From assembly GCA_030608565.1 (NCBI GenBank), contig JAUWDY010000020.1, positions 1 through 37,688 on the forward strand: a stretch of DNA of 37,688 bases. Direction: 5' to 3'. The notes beneath the pieces were generated by a model. That model was not told where the DNA came from. It saw nothing but the letters and a program-made list of their open reading frames with translations, and searched no databases. Shown here one piece after another: positions 20,724 through 28,590 of this stretch (position 1 is its first letter; each line of letters begins with the position of its first letter). The position numbers and the translations under genes are program-made. The stretch is from Candidatus Bathyarchaeota archaeon. Its GTDB lineage: Archaea > Thermoproteota > Bathyarchaeia > Bathyarchaeales > Bathyarchaeaceae.

Positions 20724-23063
20724 TCAGAGCCTTTTTCTTGCCATGTATATAGCGACTACCAATGCAACTGCAATAACTAGCGCTGCAACAGCTACATATG
20801 TCATCGTGTTTACTGAACTCTGCAGTGCGTCTATTTGACTGCCCAACGTATCCAATGTTTCAGAGTTGTCCGCTATTAGGTCGTAGAGGGGTGTCATCGC
20901 ATCGTCAACCGAGGAAGCATTCAGCATTTCAACGTATGTCCATTCAGTCCCAATTGTGGCTAAACGATCGAATAGATAATAATAGAATACTCCTGTACTT
21001 GGTGGCGTTACGGTGAAACCGTACCAGCCGCTCAGATCTGTAGTTGTTAGACCTATTTTAGCATAGACTGTTTCGTACGTTGCATTGTTAGTGACTTCCC
21101 TCAACTCAAGTTCCCTGCTAGCCAATGGGTTCCCATCTGCACCTGTGTAGATGCCCCTTATGGGGGCTGACATTCCGAGTAAGAATGAAGGAAATGCTGG
21201 CTTAGGCGGTGGACCCGGAACCGTGTAACCTGCTTTCTCCAAGTATTCTCTTGCCTTCGATAGGTCGTATGATCTTGCAGTTATCGAGGCGTTGTAGAAA
21301 GGATATGTTGGTAACCAGTATGTTGTTGCAGGTTGTCCATAGCCTGCCATCGGGTTGTCGATAATGAGTTGTCTCGGAATGGCGTATTCAATAGCCATTC
21401 TCACATACTTGGCTGCTTCTGCGGCTCTTGTTGGATCAGACTGGCCCAATGGAGTGTCTACGCCGGTGCCAAGAATCGGGTGTTGGTGGTTGTAACCGAC
21501 TTCTTGCCTACCTGTGCCTTCATTAAGCAACACCTTGCCCCATGTTGGGTCTATGGTTGGAATGTCCACTTGAATCTGGTATTGAGGATCCAGAATGTCG
21601 ACTTCATCATTCTTTAACGCTGCTAGAGCTGGAGTCTTGTCGGCGATGAATCTGATGTAGTAGTCCTCTACTTCGAACAATCCATCGGCTTCCAGAGCCG
21701 TTCTATTCCAATAGCCAGTGAATTTTTCGAGATGGACAAGCTGAGCAACTGAATCGAAGTCTACCCATTTGTAAGGTCCAGTTCCTACAGGTCCAGTATA
21801 TGTAGTTCCCCCTATGTCTATCGATCCGTCACCAGTGTTGAACGGGCTGTCCGTCCAATCTGCGGGGGCCATTTCCCCAAAGATGTGTTTAGGAATTATG
21901 TTGTTGGCGAAACCTAAAAGGTATGGGTCAAAGTATCCGTAGGGCTTACCAGGGAGCAATTCAGGAAGCCACATCTCAATCGTAGTTGCGTCCACAGCTG
22001 TTATGTTGCCTACTCTGGTACCCGTTCCTAAAGTTGTTGATGAGCTGTCGGTATATGTGAATTTGACATTGTCTCCGAAAGCCTGTGTGTAGGTTCCTTG
22101 GTGCTGCGTACCTGTGGCGGGGTTCATGAGAGCCCATATAGAGAACACAACGTCATCTGCAGTGAAGTCTTCTCCGTCATGCCATTTCACACCAGTTCTA
22201 CAGGTCCAAGTCCATTTGAAACCATTTTCACTTGGCACCCACGACGTTAGCAAGTTGGGATCAGTGTAACTGGATAGACTTGGTTTCACCAATACCAAGC
22301 CGCCGAAAACGTTTGCAGATATAATAGTGTCATACCAGGAGTTAGACAGAGGCGGGATCAATGATTCAATTTCGCCAGTAGAAGCATAGACTACTGTGCT
22401 TTTGCCTGTAAGCATTTCAGGGTTGGGTTGAGCATTGAAGTAAAGCCAACCTTCACCCCCTGGGCTTGTACCTAATGCTGGGCCTCCCAATTCAGGAGTA
22501 ACTGCAGTAGGTGTGCTCGAATAGAAGATTTGAGAGCCTGGCAATTCGTTGTAAAAGATTGTCTGCAATCTCTTCGAAACCTCATCTCGCTCGGTTGTAT
22601 TAGCTGTGGTTAGAAATATATCCATGAGGTCGTTGGCTTCTGTGTTGTTGAATAGATAGTAGTTATTTCCAGTCGGCGCGAAGCCTTCTTCGCTTCCGTA
22701 ATATAGTTGACTGGGTTCAGGAATCAATCCTGGTGTCCAACCTACCAACTGAATGTCGAACCCGCCTTCAGCGTAAGGCTTGCCCACATTCTCTTCTGGA
22801 GGTGTGAAAACGCGGTCGTAAACGCTTGCCCAGCCCAAATATACTACTCTAGCGTCGATTCCTAGTTGTATCAGCGAGTTTGCAATTATCTGTCCCCACT
22901 GGCGTCTCAACATGTTTGCGTTTCCCGGAGCGATTATTGTAACACTGAATAATGTTTCATCTTGTGCTTTTGCCGTGTTTAGTGGTAACGTAGTTAAAGT
23001 CAACAGCGTGATCAACGATAGTATTAGCAATATTTTTTTGGAGTTAGCCATAATTTTCACCAT
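20724..23063 (-). CDS. ABC transporter solute-binding protein, SBP_bac_5 (peptide/nickel) type, with C-terminal Ig-like region and TM anchor
   Basis: Signal peptide, SBP_bac_5 motifs (WTCRTGVKWHDGEDFTADDVVFSI, VGTGPYKWVDFD, YDLSKAREYLEKAGY) and C-terminal TM MTYVAVAALVIAVALVVAIYMARKRL. ORF track starts at 23093; a TATA-like TTATATAAG lies there, so MVKIMANSKK (23063) or MANSKK (23051) is the more likely start. Domain order unusual (see findings). Confidence 0.9.
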   Translation of the reverse strand: MVKIMANSKKILLILSLITLLTLTTLPLNTAKAQDETLFSVTIIAPGNANMLRRQWGQIIANSLIQLGIDARVVYLGWASVYDRVFTPPEENVGKPYAEGGFDIQLVGWTPGLIPEPSQLYYGSEEGFAPTGNNYYLFNNTEANDLMDIFLTTANTTERDEVSKRLQTIFYNELPGSQIFYSSTPTAVTPELGGPALGTSPGGEGWLYFNAQPNPEMLTGKSTVVYASTGEIESLIPPLSNSWYDTIISANVFGGLVLVKPSLSSYTDPNLLTSWVPSENGFKWTWTCRTGVKWHDGEDFTADDVVFSIWALMNPATGTQHQGTYTQAFGDNVKFTYTDSSSTTLGTGTRVGNITAVDATTIEMWLPELLPGKPYGYFDPYLLGFANNIIPKHIFGEMAPADWTDSPFNTGDGSIDIGGTTYTGPVGTGPYKWVDFDSVAQLVHLEKFTGYWNRTALEADGLFEVEDYYIRFIADKTPALAALKNDEVDILDPQYQIQVDIPTIDPTWGKVLLNEGTGRQEVGYNHQHPILGTGVDTPLGQSDPTRAAEAAKYVRMAIEYAIPRQLIIDNPMAGYGQPATTYWLPTYPFYNASITARSYDLSKAREYLEKAGYTVPGPPPKPAFPSFLLGMSAPIRGIYTGADGNPLASRELELREVTNNATYETVYAKIGLTTTDLSGWYGFTVTPPSTGVFYYYLFDRLATIGTEWTYVEMLNASSVDDAMTPLYDLIADNSETLDTLGSQIDALQSSVNTMTYVAVAALVIAVALVVAIYMARKRL

Positions 23064-23098
23064 TTTCCTTTTGACAACAACCCATATCTGCAATTTCT

Positions 23099-23212: not shown

Positions 23213-24244
23213 GTGGGATGGACATTATTGAGTTCTAGCAGATCCATCATCAGAAGATTTTCATCGGTGCTAGGCAGCGCAATGTTCAGATACATTGTTA
23301 GACGGCTACTCTACATGATTCCTGTATTCTTAGGCATCTCCATAATCAGTTTCTTTGTAATGTACGCAGCAGGAGACCCTCTCAACATAATTAGACTCGG
23401 AAGACCAAACATAACTCAGGAAACCATAGATGCACTAAAAGTATATTATGGTCTTGACAAGCCGATACCCATACAATATTTGACTTGGCTCACAAACCTA
23501 CTGCAATTCAACTTCGGAAAGTCTCTGTATGGTGGCAGACCCGTGAACTTCCTCATAGGAAGCTGGGTTTGGGAAACAGTTAAACTTCAGCTAATCTCAA
23601 TTCTACTGGCCTTTGCTATATCTATACCCATAGGAATAAACTCGGCAAAGAAACAATACTCAAAACAAGACATCGCCGTTACATCCATTTCCTTATTTGG
23701 AGTTTCAATGCCCACTTTCTGGCTAGGGCTCATATTGATAATAATATTTTCATTTCAGCTAGGATGGCTACCTTCAGCGGGCGCATATGGAGCACCATAT
23801 CTTTGGTGGGACAATCCAGTCTTGGACGAAATAGCACATCTAATACTACCCGTCACTGTCCTTGTTTACGTCATGTTGGCTCAAAACATTCGCTTAATCC
23901 GAGCAAACATGCTCGAAATCTTGAGATCCGACTATATTCTTGCAGCTAGAGCAAGCGGATTAAGCGAACGTAAAGTAGTGTACAAGTACGCCTTGAGAAA
24001 CGCCATCGGCCCTGTGATCACATATCTTGGAATCTCATTGGGAGCGATAATAGCCGGTGCGCCAATGACGGAATACGTGTTTAACTGGCCAGGTCTTGGC
24101 CGTAGATATGTTGATGCCGCCATGAGGTTAGACTTCCCACTCGTGATGGGAATTAACATGGTAATAACTGTGATGACTTTGATCGCGACCCTGATAATAG
24201 ACATATGTTATGTCTACATAGACCCGAGAATAAGACTCAGGTAG
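23213..24244 (+). CDS. dppB: ABC transporter permease (DppB/OppB family)
   Basis: MFRYIVRRLLYMIPVFLGISIISFFVMYAAGDPL ... EAA-type loop RASGLSERKVVYKYALRNAIGPVITY. ATG at 23282 fits the family N-terminus better than 23213. Confidence 0.9.
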   Translation: MGWTLLSSSRSIIRRFSSVLGSAMFRYIVRRLLYMIPVFLGISIISFFVMYAAGDPLNIIRLGRPNITQETIDALKVYYGLDKPIPIQYLTWLTNLLQFNFGKSLYGGRPVNFLIGSWVWETVKLQLISILLAFAISIPIGINSAKKQYSKQDIAVTSISLFGVSMPTFWLGLILIIIFSFQLGWLPSAGAYGAPYLWWDNPVLDEIAHLILPVTVLVYVMLAQNIRLIRANMLEILRSDYILAARASGLSERKVVYKYALRNAIGPVITYLGISLGAIIAGAPMTEYVFNWPGLGRRYVDAAMRLDFPLVMGINMVITVMTLIATLIIDICYVYIDPRIRLR

Positions 24245-24252
24245 ATGAAGAA

Positions 24253-25266
24253 ATGGCCTCAAACAAAACAGGACAGAAAAAGAAGGAGAAATCCAAGCGA
24301 AGGGGCGCCAGCCAGTGGGCGGTAGCTTGGAGAAGATTCAAAAGAAATAAGGCTGGCATCTTTGGCTTAATCATTGTAATGGCTGTGTTCTTCGTTGGAA
24401 TCTTTGGAAGTTTTTTCGCTCCCTACCCAGCTAGACCAGATCCACATGCCTATGATCCTTTCTATGATATAGATCCTATTACCGGGATAGGAGATGTCCG
24501 TAAACCGCCAAGCTGGATGGATCCTGAAGAACCAAATAGCTGGAAATACCTCTTTGGAACAACGCCTATAGGCACAGATGTCTTCAGTGACATAATTCAC
24601 GGAACAAAGTATACAGTTTACGTGGGGGTTTTAGTGACCGTCATCACCATGGCTTTGTCCATCGCTGTTGGAGCCATAGCTGGATTCTACGGACGTTGGG
24701 TTGACAATATTCTGATGAGGATCTCTGAAGTGTTTCTGGTTTTTCCATCCTTGCTGCTTATTCTAGTATTTGTCAGAATATTTACAGTATCAGTAGGGGA
24801 ACCATTCTTGAACATTCCAATAATTAACATTCAAATTCCAACAGGCCTCACAATCGTCATAGTGATTCTCGGTTTGTTCAACTGGGCATCAAATGCAAGA
24901 ATGATACGCGGTGAATTCCTCAGAGTTAGAGAACTCGAATTTATAGAAGCTGAGAGAGCGTTAGGAGCTGGTAATATTAGAATCATTTTTAGACATATCC
25001 TGCCCAATCTTATGTCGTCTATAATAGTCGTTTCAAGCCTGACAATTGCCTACGCAATCTTGTTAGAAGCTGCAGTGAGTTTCCTCGGGTTCGGAGACGC
25101 AAACACGATAACCTGGGGACAGATTCTTCAAGAAAACTTCTCAGAGATGAGAATCGTTTGGTGGGCGGAGGTCTTCCCGGGTATAGCCATCTTATTAACA
25201 GTATTTGGTTTCAACTTGCTTGGTGACGGCTTATCCGATGCTATGAATCCAAGACTCAGAGATTAG
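24253..25266 (+). CDS. dppC: ABC transporter permease (DppC/OppC family)
   Basis: WAVAWRRFKRNKAGIFGLIIVMAVFFVGIFGSFFAPY; GTTPIGTDVFSDIIHG; ERALGAGNIRIIFRHILPNLMSSIIV. ORF track start 24205 overlaps dppB; ATG 24253 preferred. Confidence 0.9.
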   Translation: MASNKTGQKKKEKSKRRGASQWAVAWRRFKRNKAGIFGLIIVMAVFFVGIFGSFFAPYPARPDPHAYDPFYDIDPITGIGDVRKPPSWMDPEEPNSWKYLFGTTPIGTDVFSDIIHGTKYTVYVGVLVTVITMALSIAVGAIAGFYGRWVDNILMRISEVFLVFPSLLLILVFVRIFTVSVGEPFLNIPIINIQIPTGLTIVIVILGLFNWASNARMIRGEFLRVRELEFIEAERALGAGNIRIIFRHILPNLMSSIIVVSSLTIAYAILLEAAVSFLGFGDANTITWGQILQENFSEMRIVWWAEVFPGIAILLTVFGFNLLGDGLSDAMNPRLRD

Positions 25267-25274
25267 AGGAGTGC

Positions 25275-26273
25275 ATGCAAATGGCGGAGACCTTACTGAA
25301 CATCGAAGGATTGAAAACACACTTCTTTACTGAAGCGGGAATAGTCAAAGCTGTGGACGGCATCTCTTTCAACTTGAAAAAGGGTGAATCCCTAGGACTC
25401 GTAGGTGAATCTGGGTCTGGAAAAACAGTAACAGCCCTCTCTGTGCTCAGAATAGTTCCAAAACCTGGCAAAATCACGGATGGAAAAATAGAATTCAATG
25501 ATGAAAATCTTCTCAAAAAGACTGAAAAAGAAATGCAGAAAATACGAGGAAGTAAAATTGCCATCATTTTTCAAGACCCCTCATCTTCATTAAATCCTGT
25601 ATACACTGTTGGGACCCAACTAAGAGACGTCATAATGGCTCACCAAACCGTATCCAAGACAGAGGCTAGAAAAAAGACAATCGAAATCCTAGAAGTCGTC
25701 GGCCTTCCTGACGCGGAGACTAGAATGCGTGAATATCCTCACCAGTTCAGTGGTGGCATGAAACAGCGAGTAGCCATCGCCAGAGCCCTAGCCTGTGAAC
25801 CAACACTCTTGTTCGCTGATGAGCCCACTACAAACCTAGATGTCACGATTCAAGCTCAAGTACTAAATCTCCTGAATGACCTGAAAAAAAAGCTTGGAAT
25901 GTCACTTGTAATGATAACGCATGACATGGGAATCATAGCCGAAATGACAACCAGAATCGTGGTCCTATATGCTGGCCGCGTATGTGAAATCGCCGAAACT
26001 CATGACCTTTTCGAACGCCCTAGACACCCGTACACAGAGGCCTTACTTGCCGCTGTCCCTAGGCTGGATATGAGAAAAACTTTGCGCGTCATTCCCGGCA
26101 ACATCCCTAACCTCATCGAGCCTCCTTCAGGCTGTCGTTTCCATCCACGCTGCAACTATGCCAAACAGACTTGTAAAGAAGATATCCCTGTCTTGGAGGA
26201 GATAGAATCCGGGCATTTTGTTGCCTGCCATGAATGGCAAAATATCACGTTGAAGGGGGAAAGAAGCCACTGA
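25275..26273 (+). CDS. dppD: ABC transporter ATP-binding protein (DppD/OppD family)
   Basis: Walker A GESGSGKT, signature FSGGMKQRVAIARAL, Walker B LLFADEPTT, C-terminal oligopeptide-type CRFHPRCNYAKQTC. Confidence 0.92.
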   Translation: MQMAETLLNIEGLKTHFFTEAGIVKAVDGISFNLKKGESLGLVGESGSGKTVTALSVLRIVPKPGKITDGKIEFNDENLLKKTEKEMQKIRGSKIAIIFQDPSSSLNPVYTVGTQLRDVIMAHQTVSKTEARKKTIEILEVVGLPDAETRMREYPHQFSGGMKQRVAIARALACEPTLLFADEPTTNLDVTIQAQVLNLLNDLKKKLGMSLVMITHDMGIIAEMTTRIVVLYAGRVCEIAETHDLFERPRHPYTEALLAAVPRLDMRKTLRVIPGNIPNLIEPPSGCRFHPRCNYAKQTCKEDIPVLEEIESGHFVACHEWQNITLKGERSH

Positions 26274-27265
26274 CTAGTAATAATCTTATCGAAGTTAAGA
26301 ACTTGGTCAAGTATTTCCCAGTGTATTCTAGAGGCGTCTTGCTTAAGAAACAAGTTGGCATTGTGCACGCCGTGGACAATGTTAGTTTTAATATCAAAAG
26401 GAAAGAAACTTTTGGTCTAGTTGGAGAAAGCGGATGTGGAAAAACCACGGTTGCCCGGCTAATATTGAACCTAATAAAACCCACATCTGGAGAAGTTTTT
26501 TTTGAAGGAGAAAACGTTTTCGATAAATTTCAATCTGCTAGCAAGAAAGAAAAATTGAAATTAAGGAGGAAAATGCAGCTAATTTTCCAAAATCCCTATG
26601 GCTCATTGGATCCGCGAATGACGGTTTTCGACATTATCTCTGAACCATTTATCATCCATAAACACGTGCCTAAGAGCCAGTGGAAAGAGAAAGTTTACGG
26701 GCTTCTTGAGCTCGTGGGACTAGAGGAATATCATGCGGAGAGGTACCCTCATGAGTTCAGTGGAGGGCAAAGACAAAGAATATGCATGGCTCGGGCATTA
26801 GCCGTTGAACCTGAATTCTTAATCGCAGACGAACCAGTTTCTTCGTTGGACGTATCCATCAGAGCTCAGATTCTCAACTTGCTGGGAGAACTTCAGGAAA
26901 GAATAGGGCTTGCCTATCTGTACATATCGCACGATTTGAGTTCTGTTAGACAGATCAGCCATAGGGTAGCAGTCATGTATTTAGGCGAAATAGTTGAACT
27001 TGCAGACACCGATAAGCTTTTCAAAAGTCCCCTCCACCCGTACACTGACGCTTTGATTCAAGCAGTTCCAATTCCTGATCCAAAAGCAAGAGCTATGAAA
27101 ATTGTCCTGCCCGGAGAGGTGCCTAGCCCAATTAACCCTCCCTCAGGTTGTCGCTTCCATCCAAGATGCCCAAGAGCACAAAAAATTTGTGGTAAAAAGG
27201 AACCAGTGTTCAAAGAGTTGAAAAGTGATCATTTCGCAGCCTGCTTTTTTCCCCATCTGGATTGA
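26234..27265 (+). CDS. dppF: ABC transporter ATP-binding protein (DppF/OppF family)
   Basis: Walker A GESGCGKT, signature FSGGQRQRICMARAL, Walker B FLIADEPVSSLD, C-terminal CRFHPRCPRAQKIC. Confidence 0.92.
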   Translation: MAKYHVEGGKKPLTSNNLIEVKNLVKYFPVYSRGVLLKKQVGIVHAVDNVSFNIKRKETFGLVGESGCGKTTVARLILNLIKPTSGEVFFEGENVFDKFQSASKKEKLKLRRKMQLIFQNPYGSLDPRMTVFDIISEPFIIHKHVPKSQWKEKVYGLLELVGLEEYHAERYPHEFSGGQRQRICMARALAVEPEFLIADEPVSSLDVSIRAQILNLLGELQERIGLAYLYISHDLSSVRQISHRVAVMYLGEIVELADTDKLFKSPLHPYTDALIQAVPIPDPKARAMKIVLPGEVPSPINPPSGCRFHPRCPRAQKICGKKEPVFKELKSDHFAACFFPHLD

Positions 27266-27384: not shown

Positions 27385-28590
27385 ATGTACCACCATACCA
27401 ACGTGTTCAAGAATGAAAGTAAATTGGACATCAACTATGTACCGCCTCGTCTCCCTCACAGGCATTTCCAACTCAATCTCTTGAATCAATTCTTCCGCTT
27501 CGTCCTCGAAAATCCCGGAAAAATGGCTCAACGTGTGCTAATCACCGGAAATGTTGGAACTGGAAAAACAGTTCTTTCCCAGCACTTCGGACTAGAAATG
27601 GCAAGAAAGGCAAAAGAGAGAGGAATAAACCTCAACTACGTTCACGTCAACTGTCGCGAATGCAAGGGAAGCCTCTTCATGATTCTTCAACGAGCCATCT
27701 TAAATTTTCATCCACACTTCCCTAAACGCGGCTATTCAGCGGAAGAACTCTTACAAACGCTTATACAGATTCTTGATGAACAAAACGCCTATCTCATCTT
27801 GGCGACCGACGAGTTAGAAGCACTCATCCAAATCGGAGGATCAGACCCTCTTTACAAACTCACCCGCATTCAAGAAGACCGCCTTAAAGCTCCCCAAAGA
27901 TTCTCCCTCATCTGCATCCTCCGCGAACCCAAATACCTGGACAGCCTCGACCACAGCACAAGAAGTACTCTTCAACATAACATCATCCGTCTAGAAGAAT
28001 ACTCACTATCTAAGCTTCAAGACATACTGAAAGACCGAGTAGACCTCGCCTTTAAATACGGAACAGTCTCCACATCAACTCTACACTTCATCGCCGAATT
28101 AGCTTCTTCAGAAGGCGGCGACGCACGATACGGAATTGAACTTCTATGGCGCGCTGGCAAATACGCCGACGCCTTGCAACTGTCAGAAGTTTCACCTGAG
28201 TGCGTTCGAAAAGCGGCTGCTGATGTCTACCCAGTTGTACGAAAAGACATCATCTTTTCTCTCAGTCTTCATGAAAAATTGTTTCTCCTCGGTATTACAA
28301 GATACTTTAAACATTCCGAAGCTGCCTATCTGTCTATGGGAGAGGCTGAAGGCGCTTACGCGGTTGTTTGCGAAGAGTATGATGAAAAGAAGAGGGGTCA
28401 CACTCAACTTTGGAAATACGTGAAAAAGCTTTCTGCATTGGGCATAATCAGAACAGAGCTTTCCAGCGTTGGACAACGAGGGAAAACTACGTGTATCAGT
28501 TTGCCGGGGGTTCCAGCCTCAGACTTGGAACAAGAGTTGACCAAAATTCTCTCCACAGAGAAAAGACGGAGTAATCCGCATGTCAATTGA
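27385..28590 (+). CDS. Orc1/Cdc6-family AAA ATPase with C-terminal winged helix
   Basis: YVPPRLPHRHFQLNLLNQFF, Walker A TGNVGTGKTVL, sensor-like LICILREPKYLDSLD, Cdc6-type C-terminal wH (SLSLHEKLFLLGITRY..., YVKKLSALGIIRTEL). Confidence 0.85.
   Translation: MYHHTNVFKNESKLDINYVPPRLPHRHFQLNLLNQFFRFVLENPGKMAQRVLITGNVGTGKTVLSQHFGLEMARKAKERGINLNYVHVNCRECKGSLFMILQRAILNFHPHFPKRGYSAEELLQTLIQILDEQNAYLILATDELEALIQIGGSDPLYKLTRIQEDRLKAPQRFSLICILREPKYLDSLDHSTRSTLQHNIIRLEEYSLSKLQDILKDRVDLAFKYGTVSTSTLHFIAELASSEGGDARYGIELLWRAGKYADALQLSEVSPECVRKAAADVYPVVRKDIIFSLSLHEKLFLLGITRYFKHSEAAYLSMGEAEGAYAVVCEEYDEKKRGHTQLWKYVKKLSALGIIRTELSSVGQRGKTTCISLPGVPASDLEQELTKILSTEKRRSNPHVN

Follow-up and report, generated by a model that had tools for sequence, protein, structure and literature searches.

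A circularly permuted SBP_bac_5 solute-binding protein beside a divergent Dpp-type importer operon in a bathyarchaeon, and repeated permutation of its fold

The window analyzed here is a 37,688-nucleotide stretch of DNA from a Candidatus Bathyarchaeota archaeon (contig JAUWDY010000020.1). It carries a solute-binding protein (SBP) gene of the SBP_bac_5 family (P0001) at 20724-23051 on the minus strand, encoding 775 residues from the ATG at 23051, with an in-frame TTG at 23093. Divergent ORFs at 23213-27265 on the plus strand encode two permeases and two ATPases of the Dpp/Opp (PepT) type. The dppB-type (23213-24244) and dppC-type (24205-25266) permeases are homologous to permeases adjoining other permuted SBPs. 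They are followed by a dppD-type ATPase (25275-26273) with a Walker A motif and the signature FSGGMKQR, and a dppF-type ATPase (26234-27265) with a Walker A motif and the signature FSGGQRQR. An Orc1/Cdc6-type replication initiator gene (Cdc6_lid, Cdc6_C) lies immediately after dppF, at 27385-28590 on the same strand.

The window protein begins with a hydrophobic signal segment (about aa 1-29; 22965-23051, minus strand, as for all its parts) with a hydropathy peak of 2.1 and a predicted helix at residues 3-20. Next comes a translocated segment (aa 33-190; 22482-22955) that corresponds to residues 343-493 of mature DppA and is C-terminal in canonical proteins; profile and PDB sequence matches, a doubled-sequence match and dN/dS all bear on it. 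The junction between the old C-terminus and the old N-terminus (aa 191-216; 22404-22481) spans the gap that separates HMM matches to residues 48-190 and 203-610. The part that is N-terminal in the canonical fold, identified by profile matches and the doubled sequence, then runs through the motif AREYLEKAGY (aa 217-610; 21222-22403; DppA 1-342). A C-terminal tail of 165 residues contains a predicted beta-sandwich stalk (aa 629-712; 20916-21167) and a long helix combining a coiled coil with a C-terminal transmembrane (TM) anchor (aa 730-775; 20727-20864; hydropathy 2.9). An earlier note on this DNA had described the open reading frame, its sequence motifs and the order of its parts just as we find them; its residue numbers run 14 higher because it started from the TTG. 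Part of the stalk and TM tail (aa 662-774) resembles part of several ORFs of 840-875 residues in five genomes (L019, L024-L027, L035; G015, G019, G021, G022, G023), which match over the tail only.

Every part of the SBP_bac_5 fold is found once in the window protein, with none missing and none doubled, but the canonical chain order is broken. The whole protein scores 178.5 bits against Pfam SBP_bac_5 (PF00496; cut-off 32.4), and the match comes in two swapped pieces: 22946-22698 covers profile positions 288-359, and 22259-21222 covers positions 4-279. Canonical controls match as one piece. A phmmer search against PDB sequences gave the same arrangement, aligning aa 33-184 to residues 358-495 of AppA (1xoc) and aa 218-450 to residues 2-206 of DppA. 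Conversely, a profile built from 37 window-type relatives (the type A profile) splits DppA (1dpp) into mature residues 1-342 and 343-493, with zero gap and zero overlap at the break.

A circular permutant should match its family continuously when its sequence is written twice, and this is what was found. A canonical reference profile of 531 positions, built from 11 canonical Bathyarchaeia SBPs, gave two matches of 34 and 114 bits to a single copy of the core of the window protein. Against the core written twice, it gave a single unbroken match over the junction (model 28-511, 160 bits), which defines a circular permutant at the sequence level. Two relatives behaved likewise (L082, breakpoint A, 353 bits; L100, breakpoint C, 378 bits), each continuous, and a doubled canonical control was matched as two complete copies. 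The same order is common to close orthologues at 90, 73 and 60% identity. These results confirm, on sequence grounds, that the window protein has a circularly permuted version of the SBP_bac_5 (cluster C, DppA/OppA) fold, as the earlier note had proposed; the duplicated-sequence search and homologue survey it had suggested both bear it out. None of the NCBIfam models matched fits the permuted order, and the window protein stays below the curated cut-offs of DppA and the related Opp/Nik models, with 58.7 bits against DppA_dipep (cut-off 1005) and a best score of 78.7 bits against Opp4A (cut-off 650).

Two other explanations of the swapped order were considered. The N-terminal segment (aa 33-190) could be an extra domain, unrelated or duplicated, placed on a complete SBP_bac_5 protein. 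Long decorated SBPs do exist, and the 165-residue tail could in principle fill the missing part. This explanation is very improbable. The window protein holds no second copy of profile positions 280-366, a Pfam search of the tail gave no match to an SBP or any other family, and the match in the doubled sequence is continuous. Moreover, the permutants of Salipiger and Neorhizobium stop 2 residues past the match and therefore have no tail that could supply a missing lobe. We reject the extra-domain explanation, which such tail-less members refute; together with the single profile copy, they rule out the alternative that the earlier note had itself raised, namely an added domain or a tail acting as the missing lobe.

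The other explanation is an artefact of assembly or annotation, or an erroneous fusion of two tandem genes. The window and many of its relatives do come from draft metagenome assemblies. However, dozens of genomes carry the rotated gene as one unbroken ORF, among them archaeal genomes on a single contig and finished plasmids sequenced by independent groups. The window SBP gene is also under strongly purifying selection, the moved segment above all: compared with the orthologue in genome G003, dN/dS is 0.032 for the moved segment (aa 33-205), 0.139 for the remainder of the fold and 0.37 for the tail. An artefact is scarcely credible and was rejected, as the same order recurs in finished genomes.

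An AlphaFold2 model computed from an alignment gave a pLDDT of 81.5 and a pTM of 0.73, the latter lowered in part by the tail. Most of aa 35-610 is confidently modeled, and confidence is low in the signal (18-30), the new junction (195-200), the region after the break (615-628) and the stalk helix (714-757). For the tail, the model predicts, with low to medium confidence, a sandwich of six strands (aa 629-712) and a long helix that contains the TM segment (aa 730-774). This agrees with the tail architecture given in the earlier note, although its label "Ig-like" finds no Pfam hit. Structure matches of the model in the PDB are family 5 SBPs, with a target TM-score of about 0.5 over about 420 columns of the sequential part only. 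Such a score is expected, because Foldseek aligns sequentially and covers only part of a rotated fold. No solved permuted SBP_bac_5 member appeared among the results of the PDB sequence search, and homology indicates that the fold of the window protein closes. A model of a second permuted protein from the same genome (L002) reached a pTM of 0.79 and gave PDB matches of the same kind.

Permutation in this family extends well beyond the window. Order classes were assigned to SBP_bac_5 ORFs of fetched loci, giving 54 canonical, 62 type A, 25 type B and 4 type C proteins; the loci were chosen, so these counts are not prevalences, and the canonical class includes a few fragments or single-match rows. 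The breakpoints lie at about profile position 366/370 in type A (the window type), 232 in type B and 274 in type C. Type B proteins remain split when doubled, because a few model positions are shared by both of their pieces, and their assignment rests on piece order. Type A occurs in Bathyarchaeia, other families of Thermoproteota, haloarchaea and Alphaproteobacteria. In the latter two groups it resides on finished plasmids, with full ABC operons where annotated, and the carriers include Ketogulonicigenium vulgare, Neorhizobium galegae and Halalkalicoccus jeotgali. For types B and C, the listed plasmid records contained no single-piece hit, and thus only type A is demonstrable outside Thermoproteota.

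Type B is widespread in Thermoproteota, and the two remaining SBP_bac_5 genes in the window genome (L002:1282-3420 and L003:124-2241) belong to it. Their proteins end in a dockerin-like double repeat, which in L002 scores 20.3 bits against Dockerin_1, slightly below the cut-off of 22.9. The B order also occurs, together with weak matches to the N-lobe, in complete genomes of 2-3 Mb from one family and in genomes that bear archaeal amoA and are therefore those of ammonia oxidizers. SBP-like ORFs of 819-966 residues from ammonia-oxidizing archaea (L206-L211) have an apparent type B order and a very divergent N-lobe half. Type C was seen in one genus. Among the canonical architectures, one contig of genome G003 (G003:C28; L056, L031) has a 2064-residue open frame in which a canonical SBP_bac_5 domain comes first and well over 1000 residues follow.

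A tree of 84 SBPs with re-ordered sequences indicates more than one origin. Its starred branches force at least three changes at breakpoint A. Approximately unbiased (AU) tests rejected the hypotheses that breakpoint A arose only once (p 5e-8) and that all permutants share one origin (p 7e-66). The type C proteins form a supported clade, and type B occupies one side of a branch with a support of 0. Four type A proteins, designated A' (L082, L083, L085, L089), group with type C within a canonical Dpp clade, apart from the clade of the window, and make a robust case for a separate origin of breakpoint A. When the A' clade is left out, a single origin of the remaining type A proteins is weakly rejected (p 0.028), in a set that contains long branches and was named post hoc from the tree. 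The SBP_bac_5 fold has thus been permuted several times, at three breakpoints, one of them used at least twice.

The A' and C proteins also show that chain order can differ between orthologues. In the genus sampled, four genomes have order A' and four have order C (L096, L098, L099, L100). The two proteins are orthologous, about 53% identical and matching in two swapped pieces, and their genes lie directly upstream of orthologous dppB-dppC genes that are about 66% identical. A canonical-order gene, L095:2159-4230 (G099:C66), is nested in the A clade of the window, and its locus is an equivalent one with a divergent dppB. It can be regarded only as a candidate reversion, because it is frameshifted exactly at the junction (the A breakpoint) and lies on a draft contig.

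These observations bear on whether the permutations are selectively neutral, with repeated duplication and trimming yielding a rotated gene whose product folds and docks equally well. We give this possibility about an even chance. It would account for two orders of one operon's SBP in one genus beside dppB genes about 66% identical, for canonical-order L095 inside the A clade, and for an importer that stays unchanged while the termini vary. On the other hand, there are only three breakpoints and A recurs, which suggests a constraint on the permitted sites, and the frameshift and draft status of L095 weaken that example. A more far-reaching proposal is that cluster C SBPs are topologically fluid, taking four or more orders of the chain through breaks at a few permitted sites and switching even between orthologues that serve one permease pair, perhaps with returns to the canonical order. 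We consider this rather unlikely.

The earlier note had raised a possible link between permutation and surface anchoring, and this link holds in part. Most A and B permutants of Thermoproteota have a C-terminal TM segment, which is mostly absent from canonical proteins (present in about 14 of 49). Relocated termini might thus have been favored because they let a stalk tether the C-lobe to the membrane. But the A' and C permutants (four each) end at the break or within about 20 residues of it and have no C-terminal TM segment, and an N-terminal hydrophobic segment is kept in nearly all. The alphaproteobacterial and haloarchaeal A permutants also lack a C-terminal anchor, ending about 2-35 residues past the break. 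In addition, some canonical proteins are anchored too, and the association in Thermoproteota is a loose one, confounded by shared ancestry. Permutation as an adaptation to anchoring is therefore doubtful; anchoring is possible for some clades, and the anchorless permutants exclude it as a general explanation.

The genomic context points to an ordinary transport role. Dpp hits flank 49 of 61 type A, 17 of 24 type B and all 4 type C loci. Since Dpp genes adjoin most permuted loci and a divergent dppBCDF operon adjoins the window gene, the window protein most likely serves as the binding protein of that importer, as neighborhood and conservation suggest. Two residues of E. coli DppA, R383 and D436, bind the termini of the dipeptide and also make contact with DppB (PMC12136057). 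Their equivalents fall within the moved segment, where the alignment of the type A profile is gapped at R383 and lacks an Asp at D436, and the window sequence there (GWTPGLIPEP) has a counterpart of neither. A dipeptide ligand is therefore unsupported. Near type A SBP operons of haloarchaea and Alphaproteobacteria, an M28-family peptidase gene is found (L131, L133, L137, L139), which hints at peptide use. Genes for flavin-dependent monooxygenases (LLM class / nitrilotriacetate monooxygenase) adjoin the plasmid type A operons of Salipiger and Neorhizobium (L129, L130).

A plausible course of events can be outlined. In the canonical SBP_bac_5 fold, the N- and C-termini lie in the same lobe. A canonical gene may have been duplicated in tandem and then have lost its outer parts, so that a short linker would join the old termini and new termini would arise just after the KAREYLEKAGY helix, at the equivalent of DppA 342/343. 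The product would be exported by its N-terminal signal and, as predicted, held at the membrane by its C-terminal stalk and TM helix. It would close on its ligand as an ordinary Venus-flytrap SBP and may hand the ligand to the divergent DppBCDF importer. Taken jointly, a natural cluster C permutant that is exported, anchored and feeds DppBCDF by flytrap closure, with a fold permuted several times in evolution, is our preferred explanation, with a probability of roughly 0.88.

Few transport families are as common as SBP_bac_5, and automatic annotation takes the order of its parts to be fixed; the permuted members are annotated merely as "ABC transporter substrate-binding protein". Recurrent permutation at a few sites is a natural experiment on the chain breaks that a flytrap fold tolerates. 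One orthologous gene in two permutations beside the same importer bears on whether the position of the tether affects docking. Bench testing is feasible, as type A occurs on plasmids of named strains. No cluster C permutant was found in the open-license literature searched.

Compared with known systems, the window protein is closest to DppA, OppA and AppA (cluster C, PF00496). Like them, it has all parts of the fold, scores above the Pfam cut-off and lies adjacent to a DppBCDF-type importer. It differs in that its parts are rotated about the equivalent of DppA 342/343, that R383 and D436 of DppA are not conserved and that it has a C-terminal stalk and TM anchor. Related SBPs with a permuted topology include the glycine-betaine binding proteins OpuAC and ProX, which belong to another SBP cluster and not to SBP_bac_5. 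Repeated circular permutation of a family in evolution is also known from the classes of DNA methyltransferases, an unrelated enzyme family that shares this feature with SBP_bac_5. TpMglB-2 (Tp0684) of Treponema pallidum, designated "Type Ic / Cluster Bc", is a binding protein of an ABC importer that is likewise a natural circular permutant; it still binds ligand and changes conformation, and anchoring was proposed as a possible reason for its permutation (PMC4990184). Its sugar-binding type I / cluster B fold belongs to a different SBP class, and such a fold was rejected for the window protein, whose sequence and structure matches are to SBP family 5. TpMglB-2 is not known to have repeated origins or multiple breakpoints, whereas the SBP_bac_5 permutants show both. 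Here, a known fold and a known type of rearrangement come together in a large, recurrent and apparently undescribed set within a major family.
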